In this document: positions 2,081 through 33,848 of the stretch, piece after piece | Numbering within the stretch: position 1 is the stretch's first letter | Layout: each line of letters opens with the position of its first letter | IMG/VR virus record: IMGVR_UViG_3300041411_000080 | Coordinates: 186,001-250,000 of that record | DNA from: a virus | Reading direction: 5' to 3' (one strand) | DNA length: 64,000 bases | Translations under genes and position numbers: made by a program | Notes under the pieces: model-generated | The model's input: the letters and a program-made list of their open reading frames with translations, nothing else | Told to the model about the DNA's origin: nothing | The model's database searches: none

Positions 2081-4846
2081 TTACTTGATTGCTTTCTTAG
2101 CAACACCACAGCAAGCGTCAGCTACATCAACGCAATGCTTAGTGATGAACTTGTACAGATCGACGTGTGCTTGAGCAGAGAGCTTCATTGCTGTAGCCAA
2201 TGCATCCACACCTTGTTCGTCACCCTTAACACGACTGTCTGCACCGATTGGCAATGCGCGATCACGAGTAGTACGAATCTTGGATACGCTGCTAACAGCG
2301 CGATCACCCGTAGTGTCAGCCAGCTTACGTGCAATAGCAACGTATGCTTTAGCAAACTTCAGCAGGTTAGCGATATCACCCTTGGACAGTTTGTAAGTAG
2401 AGCTTTCGCTTGTCTTACCAGACTTAACGCCGACTGGAATACCGGTGTGACCCAGTGCTTCGAGTTTGTCGTTACGGGAACTACCGCCAGCTTCACGGAT
2501 CTCAAGTTTGCAACCACCCAACAGACCTTTAGTAAAGGCTGTACTTGGGAAAGCTTCTTTGGTACCACGCAATGCAACAGCTGCATCTAGAGCCTTATCG
2601 ATCTCTTTATCAGAACCTGCACCGATCACGTCATTCAGAGCTTTAATCAGATTGTTCTGGAAAGTCTCAGATGCCTTGATCCCTTTTACAGAGATATCAG
2701 TAGTCAGTTTAAGATCGTCGCCTACTGCTTTAACCAGATTGGTTTCTTCGGTAGACAGATGGCCACGAATACCAGAGATGTCACCGGTAGCGAAGTCAGC
2801 GTCTTTCAATTGAACCAAGCATAGATCGATTTGTTTGTCCAGTGCATCAGCACGAGTCTTAACTTTATCGACCATGCCACTAGCCCACCACTTCTCAACC
2901 TGATGGCTGATGCGATGAGTTGCAGTAGTGATACGGGACAACATACCACGGAAAGATTCCAGAGTAGCCCGATAGGCCAGATCCAAGTCTTTACCGCTGT
3001 AGTCTTCCAGAGCTACTTTAGCAGGAGTCTTATCTTCGAAGTGTGGATCAAGAGCAGCCATCTTCTTACGGAAGGGTTCTACCGAGCCATTCATGAATGC
3101 CAGCAAACCAGCATCATAACGTTCGTTAGCAATACCCAGTTCCAGCAGAGCACGGAAGGTCTCCAGAGATTCTTTCTCTTTCTGAAGTTCTTCAATGGTC
3201 TTGTCACCGATATCCGCTTCCTTCTCTTCAGCATCGCCCCACTCACCAACTTCAGCAGCGTCAGCCATAGCTTCTTCTACATCTTCATCAGTGGTATCGA
3301 CGTCTACATCTTTGACATCCACTTCGCCAGCTTCAAAGTCAGCTGGTTCTTCAGTTTCTTCGATTTCTCCAGCCTCAGCATCCACAGCCCCAGTTTCGTC
3401 AGGGACTTCTTCGCTAGTTTCATCAGGAGACTCGTCAGCAGTTTCTTCAACAGCATCACCGGCATCTTCTTCTACCTCAGCAGTTGCATCAGCTACATCG
3501 TCCATCCCGTCTTGCAGGTCTTCAGAAGTCTGATCAGTTGTGGACTCTTCTACGGTTGCAGCAGAACCGTCACTGTCACCCATGTCACCACCAGCAGGGG
3601 TCAGATCTTCCTCAGCATCAACACCGAGTTCTTCTGCACCTTCCAATGGAGTATCATCGTCTTCAGCATCTGGTTCTTCAGTTACCTGAGTAGCAGTGGT
3701 TTCATCGTCACCCGAAGTAGCCGGAGCTTCAGCTTCTGCAACAATCTCTTCGCCGTTGTTCTGATCATCCGAAACAGTAGTATCGCCAGTCTCAGGAATC
3801 TCACCCGATTGCTCTGGGGTTTCATCTGCAATGAAAGCAGTTTGGTCAGCATCGGAACTAGCAGCTTCAGCAGTTACGTCGGCGGCTTCGTTCTGTTGCT
3901 CTACCTCTTCGGTAACGTCTGGGGTTTCAGTTGAATCATCGGTCGACGTTTCAGCACTCTCATCACCCGTGCTATCGCTAGACTCGGGTGGGCTATCGGC
4001 CAGAGGATCTTCTGTACTAGTATCGTCGACACCCAGATCAGTAGTATCTGTATCACCAGCAGATACATCATCAGTACCCAGATCATCGGGAGTAGACTCA
4101 TCAGTGGTAGTATCGGTACTATCACCCAAGTCTTCAGCGCCATCCAGAGGCGTGTCATCATCTTCTGCTGCATCGCCACCGAGATCTCCCAAATCGTCAG
4201 TACCTGCATCATCGGTACCAGCGGCTACATCACCGAGATCATCGCCACCCGCATCGAGGGTATCATCATTGATGGCTTCGCCGAGTTCTTCGTCGGAGTT
4301 CTCATCAACTTCTGCTGCTTCTTGATGAATGTCTTTAGCGGCAGCTTCTTCCTCTACCTCTTCTTCGATATCATCTTCAGCCGCGTCTTCTTCAGCATTC
4401 TCAGCTGCTTGTTCTTCGGTAACGGCATTACCGTTAACGTCAGTATCTTCACTGGCTTCACCGCCAGTTGCTTCAGCGGTTGCTTCTTGAACGATCTCGT
4501 CCTTAGTCGCAGCAGCTTGTTCACCCTCTTGGAACAGTTCGGTCATCTCAACGGATTGCTCACTGTCACCAGTGGTGGCATCTACAACTGGTGCGCCGTC
4601 AAGAGGAGTGGTATCTTCGGTCTGAGTGATATCAGCTTTGTCGTCTGCTCCGATTTCTTCTTTCGGAGTGGCTTGACCAATATCATCGCCTGCCTCAGTA
4701 GTATCCGCGTCAGGTACGATGGGTGCAACTACTTCTTCAGCATCAGCTGTCGAGATAGCGCCCTGCTCATCAAGTTCCTTAGCAGTCTCTTCAGTGTGAT
4801 CTTCTTTAGACACTCGGAAAAGATTTTGGGAAGTCACTTTCAACAT
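2081..4846 (-). CDS. Inner-body protein precursor with giant acidic propeptide, 921 aa
   Basis: Residues about 15-560 are extremely rich in Asp, Glu, Ala and Thr, with degenerate repeats such as DDTPLDGAEDLG and DDTPLEGAEELG. This is the look of a disordered, scaffold-like propeptide. The C-terminal 350 residues are helical and carry VALEDY (about 610) and TLESF (about 630), matching the small-residue-X-Glu sites that the phiKZ prohead protease is known to cut. The same layout of acidic N-part, LE-[DS]-[YF] motif and amphipathic helices recurs in the next genes. I infer an internal head protein whose propeptide is removed during maturation. It is the largest member of the series here. Confidence 0.7.
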   Translation of the reverse strand: MLKVTSQNLFRVSKEDHTEETAKELDEQGAISTADAEEVVAPIVPDADTTEAGDDIGQATPKEEIGADDKADITQTEDTTPLDGAPVVDATTGDSEQSVEMTELFQEGEQAAATKDEIVQEATAEATGGEASEDTDVNGNAVTEEQAAENAEEDAAEDDIEEEVEEEAAAKDIHQEAAEVDENSDEELGEAINDDTLDAGGDDLGDVAAGTDDAGTDDLGDLGGDAAEDDDTPLDGAEDLGDSTDTTTDESTPDDLGTDDVSAGDTDTTDLGVDDTSTEDPLADSPPESSDSTGDESAETSTDDSTETPDVTEEVEQQNEAADVTAEAASSDADQTAFIADETPEQSGEIPETGDTTVSDDQNNGEEIVAEAEAPATSGDDETTATQVTEEPDAEDDDTPLEGAEELGVDAEEDLTPAGGDMGDSDGSAATVEESTTDQTSEDLQDGMDDVADATAEVEEDAGDAVEETADESPDETSEEVPDETGAVDAEAGEIEETEEPADFEAGEVDVKDVDVDTTDEDVEEAMADAAEVGEWGDAEEKEADIGDKTIEELQKEKESLETFRALLELGIANERYDAGLLAFMNGSVEPFRKKMAALDPHFEDKTPAKVALEDYSGKDLDLAYRATLESFRGMLSRITTATHRISHQVEKWWASGMVDKVKTRADALDKQIDLCLVQLKDADFATGDISGIRGHLSTEETNLVKAVGDDLKLTTDISVKGIKASETFQNNLIKALNDVIGAGSDKEIDKALDAAVALRGTKEAFPSTAFTKGLLGGCKLEIREAGGSSRNDKLEALGHTGIPVGVKSGKTSESSTYKLSKGDIANLLKFAKAYVAIARKLADTTGDRAVSSVSKIRTTRDRALPIGADSRVKGDEQGVDALATAMKLSAQAHVDLYKFITKHCVDVADACCGVAKKAIK

Positions 4847-29818: not shown

Positions 29819-30511
29819 ATGGACCTCAGCAATGCTCAAATCCAAGCTCCAACTGGACACCCGCCACATGAATGGACTGCTGAAGAAGAGGCGCATCTAG
29901 AAAATGCCCTTCGTACAGTAGCCAAGCAAGAAGACCGCGAACACTCCCTTATTCCAGGTGCCCACGAATTTGCTGGTCGCCCACCACCGACACCCGAAGA
30001 TGAAGCCCGCCTTAAGGCTGCACTCGATAAGATCTTTAGCAAGGAATCCAAAATGGAACAAGCAACTCCAACCGTAGACATGAATGAAGTAATCGAAAAA
30101 TCTGCTGAAGCAGCTAATGAACTGCTGGCCCAAGATGGCTGGGCTATTGTTCATCAACTGCATGAAGCGGCATTGGCCCTGATCAATCAAACCGGTTTGG
30201 TCGTTCTGCCGATCATGACCAACATTGAACAATACAAACTTAAGTTGACAGACCCAGTTGGGTTTGAGAAGCGTTTTGCTACGCTCTCCAATGACGTTAC
30301 GCATCTGATGGTTGCAGTGAAAGCACTGGGTGAGAAGTCTGCCGGTAAGAAAGGCAAACCTACAGCTGAAGAACTGGATACCATCGGCAAACTGACTATG
30401 GACTATACCAAGGTCCAAGGTCACATCGAACAAGCTGTCCAACCGCTCATTCTGGTTCTCATTGAAGAACTGGAAGCTGTTGGTATTACCGAATTGAAAG
30501 TAGAGGCTTAA
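29819..30511 (+). CDS. Virion/tail-assembly region protein, 230 aa
   Basis: The N-terminal 80 residues are Pro/Glu-rich with two related helix units (WTAEEEAHLENALRTVAKQE and PTPEDEARLKAALDKIFSKE). The remainder is helical (ANELLAQDGWAIVHQLHEAA). AAGGAAT lies before the ATG. The stop is 3 nt before the ATG of the 531-aa gene, so the two are cotranscribed. Position immediately before a frameshifting chaperone-like pair suggests a tail component or assembly factor. Confidence 0.55.
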   Translation: MDLSNAQIQAPTGHPPHEWTAEEEAHLENALRTVAKQEDREHSLIPGAHEFAGRPPPTPEDEARLKAALDKIFSKESKMEQATPTVDMNEVIEKSAEAANELLAQDGWAIVHQLHEAALALINQTGLVVLPIMTNIEQYKLKLTDPVGFEKRFATLSNDVTHLMVAVKALGEKSAGKKGKPTAEELDTIGKLTMDYTKVQGHIEQAVQPLILVLIEELEAVGITELKVEA

Positions 30512-30513
30512 GC

Positions 30514-32109
30514 ATGGGTGACAACGAAACGATTGAGTCGAGTGAAGTACCTGATCAGTTCGAACAAGATGATGGTTACGTGAATGTATTCGTAGCCTCT
30601 CCAGAATCTAACGGGATGCCTCCAAGTTTGGACGTACCCGAAGAGGAACCAGAGCCTGAACCACTCTGGACTCCTGAGCAGAAAGCTCAAAACTTCGAAC
30701 ATGAACGTAAAGCTGCTGGCACACCTATCGAAGGTGAGAAGTCTATCATCTCTTACGTCCGTGAAAACTTCGATACAGTTAACGCTGTACTGGAACGTAA
30801 CAACGAACTGCTTGAAGCAATGCGTCAAGGTCAGCTCACTAACGCTGACACTGATGTCCGCTGGTTGGCTTCGCTGATCTCTGGGTTGCAGAACATCTCT
30901 CTGGATGAAGCCCCTAGTGGTGCACTGTACCGTGAAGGTTCTTTCTGGCGTGATGGTTGCTCCGTACCTAATCATCCGAAACTGGTTCGTCCGGGCCGTC
31001 CTGCTCAGAAATATGAGAAAGGTAAACGGCAGTCCAAAGAAGCAGCACTTGCTTACCTGAGCTATCGTTCGGGTATGGGCGGTACTTACGAGACCTTCCT
31101 ACCGCATTCCGGTATTTGGGTACGCCTACGTCGCCCATCGCTGGGTGAAGTAGTTGCAATGCAAACAGAACTTCAGTCGATCCGTGTACAACTCGGTAAC
31201 GATACTAAAGGTCTGGCCTTCTCGCATGCAAGCTTCCGTATGCTGGATGCTGTAACCGATCTGGCGATCAGTTGCGTAACTGGTTCTAACCGTCAGTACA
31301 AAACTGCATCGGACCTTGAGTCTGAGATCAGTATCTTCGACGAAAGCATTCTGCATCACGCACTGGCTTCGGTAATGTACCCAGATGGTTTCAACTACTC
31401 GGTACCTTGCATCGCTGACCCACGTAACTGCTCTGGCGTTACTGAGTTCAAGATGAACATGTCGAACATCGTTAACTACGATGACTCGGTATACACTGTT
31501 GAACAACGTAAGTTCATTGCTAAGCGTCTGGAGCCACAACCGGAAGATGCCTTCACTGAATACCGCAAGGCTTTCAGTATCGGTAACCCTAAAGTGTTCT
31601 GGATGGGTGATGTCGGTGTTAAGCTCTCTCCACCGTCCGTAGCGGAACGTCGTATCGCAGCTAAGCTTTGGTATGATACTCTCATTGAAATGTCCCACGG
31701 CGCCTTTAACGAGTCCCCAGAGGGTAATCAACGCTTCGAGTACATCCGTCGTCTGCAACAGGCTACTAAAGCCACTCAATACGCTCACTGGGTATCGGCA
31801 ATCTATCTGAAAGATGAAGAAGCCGTTGACTTTGAAGATCAACTCTTCACTGACGATCCTGAAGTTATCATGGAGTTCATCTCCTCGACGCTTTCCGAAC
31901 ATGAGTACTTTGATAGCTTCGCTGAGAAGGTTAACACTTTCTCTAATGAATCGATCATCGGTGTTATTGCAATGCCTTCGCACAACTGCACTGAGTGTAA
32001 CTCCCCACAAGGGATTGCATTCAATGAACGCTTGCCTCACTTGGTGCCGATGGACATGCTATCAACGTTTTTTACGTTAGCGGCCCGGAAAGTGTCGCAC
32101 CAGGGGTAG
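30514..32109 (+). CDS. Tail-assembly (chaperone-like) protein, 531 aa, upstream frame of a -1 frameshift pair
   Basis: The N-terminus (1-85) is acidic and disordered. The middle contains RLRRPSLGEVVAMQTEL and a long helical region. The C-terminus has MPSHNCTECNSPQG (possible metal site) and ends VPMDMLSTFFTLAARKV, a style of ending (CxxC, then VP-[LI]-D...FFTL) I associate with tail-assembly or baseplate-assembly proteins of large phages. The two Phe codons are TTT TTT, the slip site, and the -1 frame runs on to 32555. Lambda-type tail chaperones use the same long/short strategy. Role inferred. Confidence 0.62.
   Translation: MGDNETIESSEVPDQFEQDDGYVNVFVASPESNGMPPSLDVPEEEPEPEPLWTPEQKAQNFEHERKAAGTPIEGEKSIISYVRENFDTVNAVLERNNELLEAMRQGQLTNADTDVRWLASLISGLQNISLDEAPSGALYREGSFWRDGCSVPNHPKLVRPGRPAQKYEKGKRQSKEAALAYLSYRSGMGGTYETFLPHSGIWVRLRRPSLGEVVAMQTELQSIRVQLGNDTKGLAFSHASFRMLDAVTDLAISCVTGSNRQYKTASDLESEISIFDESILHHALASVMYPDGFNYSVPCIADPRNCSGVTEFKMNMSNIVNYDDSVYTVEQRKFIAKRLEPQPEDAFTEYRKAFSIGNPKVFWMGDVGVKLSPPSVAERRIAAKLWYDTLIEMSHGAFNESPEGNQRFEYIRRLQQATKATQYAHWVSAIYLKDEEAVDFEDQLFTDDPEVIMEFISSTLSEHEYFDSFAEKVNTFSNESIIGVIAMPSHNCTECNSPQGIAFNERLPHLVPMDMLSTFFTLAARKVSHQG
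32066..32076 (+). promoter_or_regulatory. Candidate -1 frameshift slip site (CGTTTTTTACG)
   Basis: In the 531-aa frame the codons are ACG TTT TTT ACG. Slipping back one base on the six-T run (32068-32073) moves translation into the frame that reads TTT TAC GTT AGC and stays open to 32555. There is no convincing long hairpin directly downstream. Confidence 0.6.
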
Positions 32110-32555
32110 AAGCACGTGATCCTAAATCCAGTCGCTTGGCCATTGATCTAAGCGACCCGGATGGACATGTCACAATGCTTTCCTTTGGCTTGCAGGAGGT
32201 AGAGAACTCCCGCTTGGAAGATCTCTATATGACTCAAGGGCCAATGCGTCCTGTTGTTACAGAGATGGTCACCCGCAAGGCGTACCAGCAAGATCGCGGT
32301 ATCTGCACACACCAAACCAATGACCCCTTAGACCTAGTGCGTCTGCACCCTAAGGAAGATATTGTTGAAGGTGGTCCTAAACGAACATGGCAACGTAAGT
32401 ATGCTAACTACCGAATAAAAGATGTGTGGGGCATTAGTGTCCTAGACTTCTTTGAGTTGACCTTTGACGAGGCTCGATTCTACGTAGAGTATGCACAGAC
32501 CATCTCCGTTCAAGAAGGGATTAGTGCAAACCAACTCATGAATGGGTTGCGATAA
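32070..32555 (+). CDS. Downstream frame of the frameshift pair (C-terminal extension, about 161 codons)
   Basis: The frame opens after a stop at 32025-32027 and has no ATG, GTG or TTG before TTG at 32136, yet it codes convincingly through the overlap: YVSGPESVAPGVEARDPKSS, then LAIDLSDPDGHVTMLSFGL. I therefore read it as an extension added to the 531-aa protein by -1 slippage at the T-run, giving a fusion of about 680 residues. The extension is a soluble mixed alpha/beta domain ending GISANQLMNGLR. If instead it starts at TTG 32136, no good ribosome binding site is seen. Probable role: the minor, longer tail chaperone. Confidence 0.6.
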   Translation, partial: FYVSGPESVAPGVEARDPKSSRLAIDLSDPDGHVTMLSFGLQEVENSRLEDLYMTQGPMRPVVTEMVTRKAYQQDRGICTHQTNDPLDLVRLHPKEDIVEGGPKRTWQRKYANYRIKDVWGISVLDFFELTFDEARFYVEYAQTISVQEGISANQLMNGLR

Positions 32556-32578: not shown

Positions 32579-32600
32579 GCCCCCTCCGATTGGAGGGGGC
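32579..32600. terminator. Bidirectional hairpin between convergent units
   Basis: GCCCCCTCC and GGAGGGGGC form a 9-bp stem around GATT, followed by TTATGCCGTTT on the plus strand. It ends the tail-assembly unit and also lies 10 nt past the stop of the first small membrane-protein gene on the minus strand. Confidence 0.85.
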
Positions 32601-32610
32601 TTATGCCGTT

Positions 32611-32823
32611 TCAGAGTGTTGCATCCACCATAGCCTTAATAACCATGATGAACGCAGCGGCGATAATTGCCACCAGATTGAATAAGAAGAAGAATCCCAT
32701 CCAAGCATAGGTGCTCTCGCTGAGGAACAACTTGATATTAAAGCTACAGATCATCAACCTTCCTAACGCTTTGAAGAACAGGAAGGCATAGACCATAGCT
32801 ACCAGCAACAGTAGATAGTCCAT
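32611..32823 (-). CDS. Small membrane protein, 70 aa
   Basis: Two hydrophobic segments (LLLLVAMVYAFLFFKALG near the N-terminus and MGFFFLFNLVAIIAAAFIMV near the C-terminus) predict two transmembrane helices separated by a short polar loop. GAGGTGAC lies just before the ATG. It is the last of six tiny membrane-protein genes on the minus strand. Function unknown. Confidence 0.65.
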   Translation of the reverse strand: MDYLLLLVAMVYAFLFFKALGRLMICSFNIKLFLSESTYAWMGFFFLFNLVAIIAAAFIMVIKAMVDATL

Positions 32824-32826
32824 ACG

Positions 32827-32976
32827 TCACCTCTTGAACAGTTCCAGAAAATTCCAGAATGCCCAACCGTTTAAACAAAATAGCACGATGCCAAGCAAGG
32901 TCCACCAACGCCGAAGCGTCATCATACCGAGTGACAACAACGCTACCGCGATGTAGAACAGAACCAAGATGGCCAT
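32827..32976 (-). CDS. Small membrane protein, 49 aa
   Basis: The start is taken at 32976 (MAILVLFYIAVALLSLGMM) because AAGGAGTAGTC precedes it; the longer open frame lacks a site. Two transmembrane helices are predicted (about 2-19 and 26-43, LLGIVLFCLNGWAFWNFLEL). It overlaps nothing but lies 3 nt from the next gene. Unknown function. Confidence 0.65.
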   Translation of the reverse strand: MAILVLFYIAVALLSLGMMTLRRWWTLLGIVLFCLNGWAFWNFLELFKR

Positions 32977-32978
32977 GA

Positions 32979-33155
32979 CTACTCCTTTAACGTCTCCAGA
33001 AACATCATGAACGAGTACCCATCCAATACCAGCAACGCGATACACGATAGCATTACCAAGACCGTTGCCATCGGAGTCTCGCATTTGAGCCCGATGAAAA
33101 AGATCCATATTGCTAACAGTAATACCAACACATGAAGCAGAACTATAGCGAACAT
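32979..33155 (-). CDS. Small membrane protein, 58 aa
   Basis: The ATG at 33155 is preceded by AGAGGAGGTTAAT, so the longer frame to 33269 is rejected. The product (MFAIVLLHVLVLLLAIWIFFIG, then ATVLVMLSCIALLVLDGYSF) has two predicted transmembrane helices. It ends FLETLKE, resembling the end FLELFKR of the 49-aa neighbour; both also have a WNF/YSFM-type turn, so the two may be duplicated copies. A TATATTAC element lies 25 nt upstream. Confidence 0.68.
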   Translation of the reverse strand: MFAIVLLHVLVLLLAIWIFFIGLKCETPMATVLVMLSCIALLVLDGYSFMMFLETLKE

Positions 33156-33179
33156 ATTAACCTCCTCTAGTTCATGGTT

Positions 33180-33187
33180 GTAATATA
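33180..33187 (-). promoter_or_regulatory. TATATTAC early-promoter-like octamer
   Basis: The minus strand reads TATATTAC here, upstream of the 58-aa membrane-protein gene. This matches the early promoter core I recall for phiKZ. Surrounding sequence is AT-rich. Confidence 0.45.
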
Positions 33188-33202
33188 CTGTTATAACTGG
33201 TT

Positions 33203-33418
33203 CTAATGTCGTCCTATAACAACGAGGGATGTAATGATTAATAACACCCCCATGCCAACCGTTGACCAAGTCAGTCGTCTAAACCAATTCCATTGCTTTG
33301 TCGGAACCGGGAAACCCCTGCGCTTCATCCGTTCAGACATGACGACCATACCACCTAACTGAAGTACGATTATTACAAGCACCGTCCCAAAAACAAAACC
33401 TAGATGTTCAAAGATCAT
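33203..33418 (-). CDS. Small membrane protein, 71 aa
   Basis: Two hydrophobic segments (FVFGTVLVIIVLQLGGMVV and WSTVGMGVLLIITSLVVIG) flank a basic loop (MKRRGFPVPTKQWNWFRR). The positive-inside rule puts the loop in the cytoplasm. The ATG overlaps the stop of the 75-aa gene (ATGA), so translation is coupled. Unknown function. Confidence 0.65.
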   Translation of the reverse strand: MIFEHLGFVFGTVLVIIVLQLGGMVVMSERMKRRGFPVPTKQWNWFRRLTWSTVGMGVLLIITSLVVIGRH

Positions 33419-33642
33419 ACAGTTCCCCTCGCAAGCATTTCAAGATACACGGCTTCTACAAACTGCACCAGAAACCATGTCCCAAGGCCCAGACAGACCA
33501 TTACAAAGCTTCCAAGCATGTACCTGCCATAACGGTAGTCTCTTGGTTTGTACATCGCCAGATGGAACAGGAGAGCTTCTATGGTACCACCAATTGCAAT
33601 TACTAAAGCGATTGCCTTCACTACAGCAATCCACGTCATCAT
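33415..33642 (-). CDS. Small membrane protein, 75 aa
   Basis: Two predicted transmembrane helices (VVKAIALVIAIGGTIEALLF and MLGSFVMVCLGLGTWFLVQF) are joined by a basic loop (YKPRDYRYGR). It overlaps both neighbours by 4 nt (ATGA at each junction), showing strict coupling within the membrane-protein cluster. Confidence 0.65.
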   Translation of the reverse strand: MMTWIAVVKAIALVIAIGGTIEALLFHLAMYKPRDYRYGRYMLGSFVMVCLGLGTWFLVQFVEAVYLEMLARGTV

Positions 33643-33848
33643 TGGTAGAGACCCTTACTAAGATTCAGTGCTACAGCCAACCACTGTAAAGCGACGATAA
33701 CGAAAGTACCACTGATAACCATACCCTTCAGGACACCCTGTGTCATGTAGGTTTCATATGGGCGACACATACGGACTACGCAATAAATAATCGCAATCAG
33801 TACCAAAGCAATAGCCAGTGCAAACAAATGGTTTATCGCGTACGACAT
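33639..33848 (-). CDS. Small membrane protein, 69 aa, first of the cluster
   Basis: The helices HLFALAIALVLIAIIYCVV and VISGTFVIVALQWLAVAL are separated by MCRPYETYMTQGVLKG. It follows a terminator at 33871-33888, so the cluster 33848-32611 may have its own promoter in the short gap or depend on read-through. The helix-loop-helix layout is the same as in the 71- and 75-aa neighbours. Confidence 0.65.
   Translation of the reverse strand: MSYAINHLFALAIALVLIAIIYCVVRMCRPYETYMTQGVLKGMVISGTFVIVALQWLAVALNLSKGLYQ

Follow-up and report, generated by a model that had tools for sequence, protein, structure and literature searches.

The DNA analyzed here, referred to as the window, is a 64,000-nt stretch corresponding to positions 186,001–250,000 of IMGVR_UViG_3300041411_000080, a virus record of 320,858 bases. 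The locus of interest is anchored on a plus-strand gene of 531 aa (30514..32109), the ortholog of phiKZ gp77 and 201phi2-1 gp136, whose product matches PHROG 4585 with an E-value of 2.4e-157 (PHIKZ077 being the phiKZ counterpart) and returns matches in 177 phage records. Upstream of it and co-directional lies the ortholog of phiKZ gp78 (29819..30511, plus strand; PHROG 14050), probably on one transcript with it; the same order of gp78, gp77 and a further ORF is found in 201phi2-1 and the annotated relatives. The C-terminal part of the 531-aa protein carries a CxxC motif and then ends in ...FFTLA, the frame-0 codons near the end of 30514–32109 reading ...TCA ACG TTT TTT ACG TTA GCG.... An earlier, sequence-only reading of this DNA had singled out ACG TTT TTT ACG in the gene, and both the sequence and its coordinates (32065–32076) are correct; within it lies the putative slippery heptamer G TTT TTT (32067..32073, plus strand).

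The −1 frame of the same strand is open over 32028..32555 (175 codons), as that reading had stated, and shares its first 82 nt with the end of the 531-aa gene. Its portion beyond the heptamer encodes a 160-aa extension (32073..32555, plus strand; YVSGPES...MNGLR), which corresponds to phiKZ gp76.4 and 201phi2-1 gp135 by PHROG 12109 (E 5.7e-51) and by alignments. Joining 30514–32073 to 32073–32555, with the frame switch placed after TTT TTT, yields a predicted long form of 680 aa with the junction peptide ...STFFYVSGPESVAPGVEAR. No strong terminator-like hairpin was found between the two frames of the window locus; a strong GC hairpin lies beyond the −1 ORF (32579..32600, assigned to neither strand) and, by its score, would terminate the opposing genes. 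Among the 44 main CDS of the window, an in-frame TTT TTT occurs only in the 531-aa gene and TTT TTC occurs once, and only the 531-aa gene has both an in-frame TTT TTY and a −1 frame that stays open beyond the stop. Farther along, on the minus strand (32611–33848), are five short ORFs in a row (69–93 aa) with translations that contain many hydrophobic stretches and resemble small membrane proteins.

Conservation of the overlapping reading frames

To this locus we compared a set of 85 loci comprising the window itself, 11 further Pseudomonas phages, 12 deeper relatives and 61 viral contigs, a few of them near-identical copies of the same phage. The set spans the phiKZ-like Pseudomonas phages through Goslar, PCH45, Miami and FLC6 to metagenomic jumbo phages. 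The scan of the contig collection was seeded with a 9-member gp77 set, because the full set of 24 gp77 proteins gave too diverse an alignment. At all 85 loci the end of gp77 is overlapped by a −1 ORF that extends beyond the gp77 stop, and the length of this ORF past the slip site falls between 151 and 181 codons (61 tabulated loci). SPN3US, added after the 85, has the same −1 layout, with the site GTT TTT TTC. The sole interrupted −1 extension is that of RVTF4 (2953–3201), broken after 82 codons by a natural mutation or an assembly error, with the annotated ORF resuming further on. The +1 frame was considered as the continuation and rejected, +1 ORFs being mostly short and all the annotated downstream CDS checked in the 12 deeper relatives lying in the −1 frame.

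This distribution bears on one alternative, namely that a single long gene has been split by an indel, whether a sequencing error or a genuine break. T-runs are indeed error-prone on some sequencing platforms; however, the split falls at an identical position in 85 records and contigs from very distant phages, the frame-0 end is itself conserved after the site, and no in-frame fusion occurs among the relatives examined. The comparison of relatives effectively refutes this explanation. Nor did any locus examined present the two genes clearly separated, an arrangement that the sequence-only reading had named as evidence against frameshifting; the T-run and the overlapping frame that it proposed to follow in relatives are conserved.

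Coding signal and start codons of the −1 frame

Both frames are conserved at the protein level around the site. When 14 colinear phiKZ-like loci are aligned pairwise, −1-frame amino-acid identity climbs from 0.24 in the 20 codons leading up to the site to 0.60 from the site on, while identity in frame 0 goes from 0.51 before it to 0.68 after it. The 3,538 −1 codons that separate the slip site from the first ATG in 61 non-redundant loci contain no stop, against about 304 expected if stops were as frequent there as in the −1 frame upstream (8.6%). A tblastn search with the −1 frame recovered 68 phage records, all of them Pseudomonas phages at BLAST sensitivity, with matches running from residue 1–14 on; the frame therefore codes through the overlap, as had been claimed from the window's letters.

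The start codons offer a second line of evidence, relevant to the possibility that the downstream protein is a separate gene, translated either from an internal start or, once the 531-aa frame has terminated, by coupled re-initiation. All public annotations examined draw the downstream CDS as separate, and TTG and ATG codons are available in the −1 frame. Yet the annotated starts are inconsistent, the earliest lying just ahead of the stop and the latest some 220 nt downstream: the downstream start overlaps the stop in 201phi2-1 and lies about 220 nt beyond it in phiKZ. In the window, the first possible −1 starts are TTG at 32136, before which the sequence-only reading had rightly seen no normal start, and then the first ATG at 32175; neither is preceded by a Shine–Dalgarno motif. 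Across the 61 loci such motifs are essentially absent before candidate starts, and the first ATG lies anywhere from 19 to 158 codons past the slip site, so that a start at TTG 32136 or elsewhere with its own binding site, the other observation that would have told against frameshifting, was found neither with a Shine–Dalgarno motif nor in conserved form. The −1 ORF thus appears to have no credible start of its own, and a separate gene would leave unexplained both the −1 coding conservation upstream of any start and the TTT TTY hexamer. We regard this alternative as very improbable.

Codon constraint at the probable slip site and the likely mode of frame switching

An automatic search recovered TTT TT(T/C) at frame-0 Phe-Phe, followed by at least 100 −1 codons, at 80 of the 85 loci. 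The FLC6 site, GTT TTT TTT CAG, was recovered by hand, and three contigs carry TTT TTG in place of TTT TT(T/C). Vibrio phage pVa-21 (3589–4083) has the overlapping −1 ORF with a poor site (GTA CTT TTT ACG; A CTT TTT). For closer inspection of the near-invariant hexamer we used a non-redundant set of 62 loci with less than 90% identity around the site, chosen by the presence of Phe-Phe at the site. Bases 1–5 are TTTTT in all 62, the full hexamer being TTTTTT in 41 and TTTTTC in 21. Given this mode of selection, the informative contrast is that of codon choice: at the 34 other Phe-Phe pairs in the same genes the first codon is always TTC (34/34) and never TTT (0/34), and TTT makes up 30% of Phe codons elsewhere in these genes. 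We quote no nominal probability, as the loci are related by descent and the counts are not independent events. A TTT TTY constraint of this kind is the pattern expected if two tRNA-Phe molecules slip simultaneously.

The base preceding the hexamer is T in 43 of the 62 loci, G in 11, A in 8 and C in none. The site conforms to the slippery heptamer type X XXY YYZ, with perfect P-site re-pairing only at the 43 loci where the preceding base is T; for this reason the G TTT TTT of the window is a near-canonical variant. In the reading we favor, the locus would be one gene with two readings. Most ribosomes would complete the 531-aa product, and a fraction, with tRNA-Phe in both sites on TTT TTT, would slip by −1; in the window, A-site re-pairing on TTT would be perfect and the P site would be mismatched at its first base only. 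Slipped ribosomes would then read 160 more codons, giving the 680-aa fusion, which would have its N-terminal 520 residues in common with the short form.

The T-run itself invites another explanation, in which the phage RNA polymerase inserts or omits Ts during transcription, so that edited mRNAs encode the fusion. Homopolymer runs prone to slippage in transcription are about 8–9 bases or more. Runs of 7–9 Ts are present at 38 of the 62 loci, and the phiKZ-like phages have multi-subunit polymerases of their own; such slippage is possible at the loci with 8–9 Ts. Against this, the run comprises only 5–6 Ts at the remaining 24 loci (5–7 at 45 of the 62); the window, with 6, is among those 24 and lacks a long homopolymer. 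The sixth base is often C, and the overall pattern is that of two in-frame Phe codons rather than of a long homopolymer. Because these 24 sites have only 5–6 Ts and the sixth base may be C, we infer that the slippage is ribosomal, and hold the transcriptional explanation to have only a slim chance of being correct.

Around the site, the comparison of relatives revealed no conserved RNA fold, pseudoknot or stem downstream; single-sequence folds of the downstream region gave z-scores from −0.1 to −3.8, mostly unremarkable. An Rfam search returned only a sub-threshold snoRNA-like match, and no upstream Shine–Dalgarno-like stimulator was evident on reading of the sequence. A stimulatory RNA structure or an upstream Shine–Dalgarno element is common in programmed −1 frameshifts without being universal. 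Taken on the coding and codon evidence, programmed −1 ribosomal frameshifting, giving a short form of 531 aa and a long form of 680 aa, is with high confidence the explanation of the locus, and the frameshift, deeply conserved in giant phages, is very likely real.

Gene neighborhood and candidate function

The order gp79 (opposite strand), gp78, gp77 and small ORF is retained in the phiKZ-like records and in most of the deeper relatives, CR5 and SPN3US differing in the orientation of neighbors. In the relatives compared, the gp78 ortholog precedes gp77 in the same direction and is a possible partner. Its SPN3US counterpart, judged by gene order, appears to be gp38, reported with four spectra, the fewest among the detected virion proteins. 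Neighbors of gp77 in phiKZ-like records include RNA polymerase subunits, a putative head protein and a helicase; no recognizable tail or tape-measure gene adjoins the locus in the records compared, and a search for plasmid homologs found none.

The sequence-only reading had proposed a pair of tail-assembly chaperones. What stands of this is a plausible architecture, short and long forms with a common N-terminal part, together with a weak remote resemblance to T4 gp26/gp51. The window protein has no Pfam match, and the cut-off of PF12322 (T4_baseplate) was not reached, 1 of 45 relatives matching at E 0.065, whereas T4 gp26 and T4 gp51 reach 215 and 177 bits with this model. PHROG 150, annotated as baseplate hub, is matched by 2 of the 45 gp77 members (best E 0.0032).

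Profile–profile comparisons with hhalign gave scores exceeding every column-shuffled control. The gp77 long-form profile scored 35.4 against T4 gp51 (null mean 15.2, maximum 23.2, 120 column shuffles), 26.5 against cyanophage gp26–gp51 fusions (null maximum 21.2, 120 shuffles) and 35.0 against the two together; across comparisons, shuffled-column means were about 15–16 and maxima 21–25 in 120 trials each, with reversed controls at 14–18. The HH probability against the T4 type is at most 31%, which is not significant, and the strongest match to gp51 is a zinc-type CxxC motif; for the −1 extension alone, 5 of 300 shuffles scored as well.

On the strength of these analogies, we consider it fairly likely that the short and long forms of gp77 are tail-assembly chaperones. 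By analogy with lambda G/GT and T4 gp26/gp51, they would act as chaperones in the assembly of the tail or baseplate hub and be left out of the virion, both forms escorting the tape-measure protein and recruiting tail subunits. The main competing possibility, which is fully compatible with the frameshift, is that the frameshift is real and its products are not chaperones, being, for example, structural proteins of the baseplate. The AH06 record calls the gene a baseplate protein, the homology to T4 is weak, the gene is unlinked to tail genes, and frameshifted capsid or tail proteins exist in other phages. On the other side, a short form ending at FF with an extended long form parallels T4 gp26/gp51 and lambda G/GT, and the 201phi2-1 record carries a mass-spectrometry note on gp138 and gp139 and none on gp135–137, as expected for proteins absent from virions. 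We therefore judge a non-chaperone role to be rather unlikely.

Comparison with known frameshifted tail genes

T4 gp26 ends in ...EFFELL at the point where its longer paralog gp51 continues for about 45 residues, and both match PF12322. In the cyanophage Syn9 (NC_008296, 6478–7391), the gp26 ORF ends TCT TTT TTC GGG TAG, and the C-terminus of gp51 lies in the −1 frame, starting before the annotated ATG, such that the annotated gp51 start is too late. The same arrangement recurs in 80 of 80 contigs of the cyanophage type: the gp26 ORF closes with NNT TTT TTC NNN stop, and the −1 frame encodes the C-terminus of gp51. When the two frames are joined in silico, the product can be aligned with T4 gp51 on both sides of the junction (hhalign 97.6%). 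Cyanophage gp51 has been described as about 20% as long as that of T4 (Sullivan et al. 2010, PMC3037559), a shortness that a −1 frameshift joining the gp26 and gp51 frames would explain.

The resemblance to gp77 consists in a short form ending in ...FF.. and a long form with a C-terminal extension. In T4, by contrast, the two forms are separate paralogous genes, and at gp77 they would be two frames of one gene; gp77 is moreover about twice as long, with an extension of 150–180 aa against roughly 45–70 in gp26/gp51, and the homology is suggestive only. A tentative evolutionary scenario, to which we give somewhat less than even weight, is that gp77/gp76.4 of the nucleus-forming giant phages and T4 gp26/gp51 are homologous. 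Their ancestor would have been a T-run frameshift gene encoding both forms of the hub or tail chaperone; phiKZ-like phages and cyanophages would have retained it, and in T4 a duplicate of the short gene, together with a long gene read in a single frame, would have taken its place. On present evidence gp77 probably works like gp26/gp51 and lambda G/GT, and may be a member of the T4 family.

Vladimirov et al. 2022 reportedly described tail chaperones made by frameshifting, among them a poly-T signal in T4-like phages. The PRFect (PMC10885494) and Adele (PMC12846349) papers cite that study for the short and long forms of T4-like tail chaperones and for the poly-T signal; the T4-like part of our observations is therefore not new, being attributed to that study by the papers citing it. 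The tail-chaperone locus of Vandenendeviridae/Andersonviridae (phage Adele, PMC12846349) likewise has a conserved GTTTTT slip site and an uninterrupted −1 frame; it belongs to another phage lineage and, unlike gp77, lies directly upstream of the tape-measure gene. Lambda produces G/GT by programmed −1 frameshifting (Xu et al. 2004; see PMC5009743 for a review). The likeness of gp77 to G/GT is one of architecture: gp77 has a T-rich heptamer and no recognizable tape-measure gene beside it, and so departs from the G/GT-type order directly upstream of that gene, an order that is usual rather than strictly defining. T4 gene 26 is likewise not directly upstream of the tape-measure gene.

Novelty and implications

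Open-access literature, to which our search was confined, yielded no description of a frameshift at gp77/PHIKZ077 in phiKZ-like phages, and the giant-phage papers checked there mention neither a frameshift nor phiKZ gp77. This agrees with the sequence-only reading, which knew of no such description, although a search of this kind cannot prove absence. The phiKZ-like locus is a new instance of a device that other phages were already known to use.

Under the frameshift reading, the start sites of the downstream CDS would be corrected in all annotated records examined, and two conserved 'hypothetical' genes of the phiKZ type would become one frameshifted gene with a testable function. The searchable papers yielded no tail chaperone in giant phages, and the locus may offer a handle on how their tails are assembled. 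A large and diverse phage lineage would thereby be added to those that set the ratio of two assembly proteins by frameshifting.
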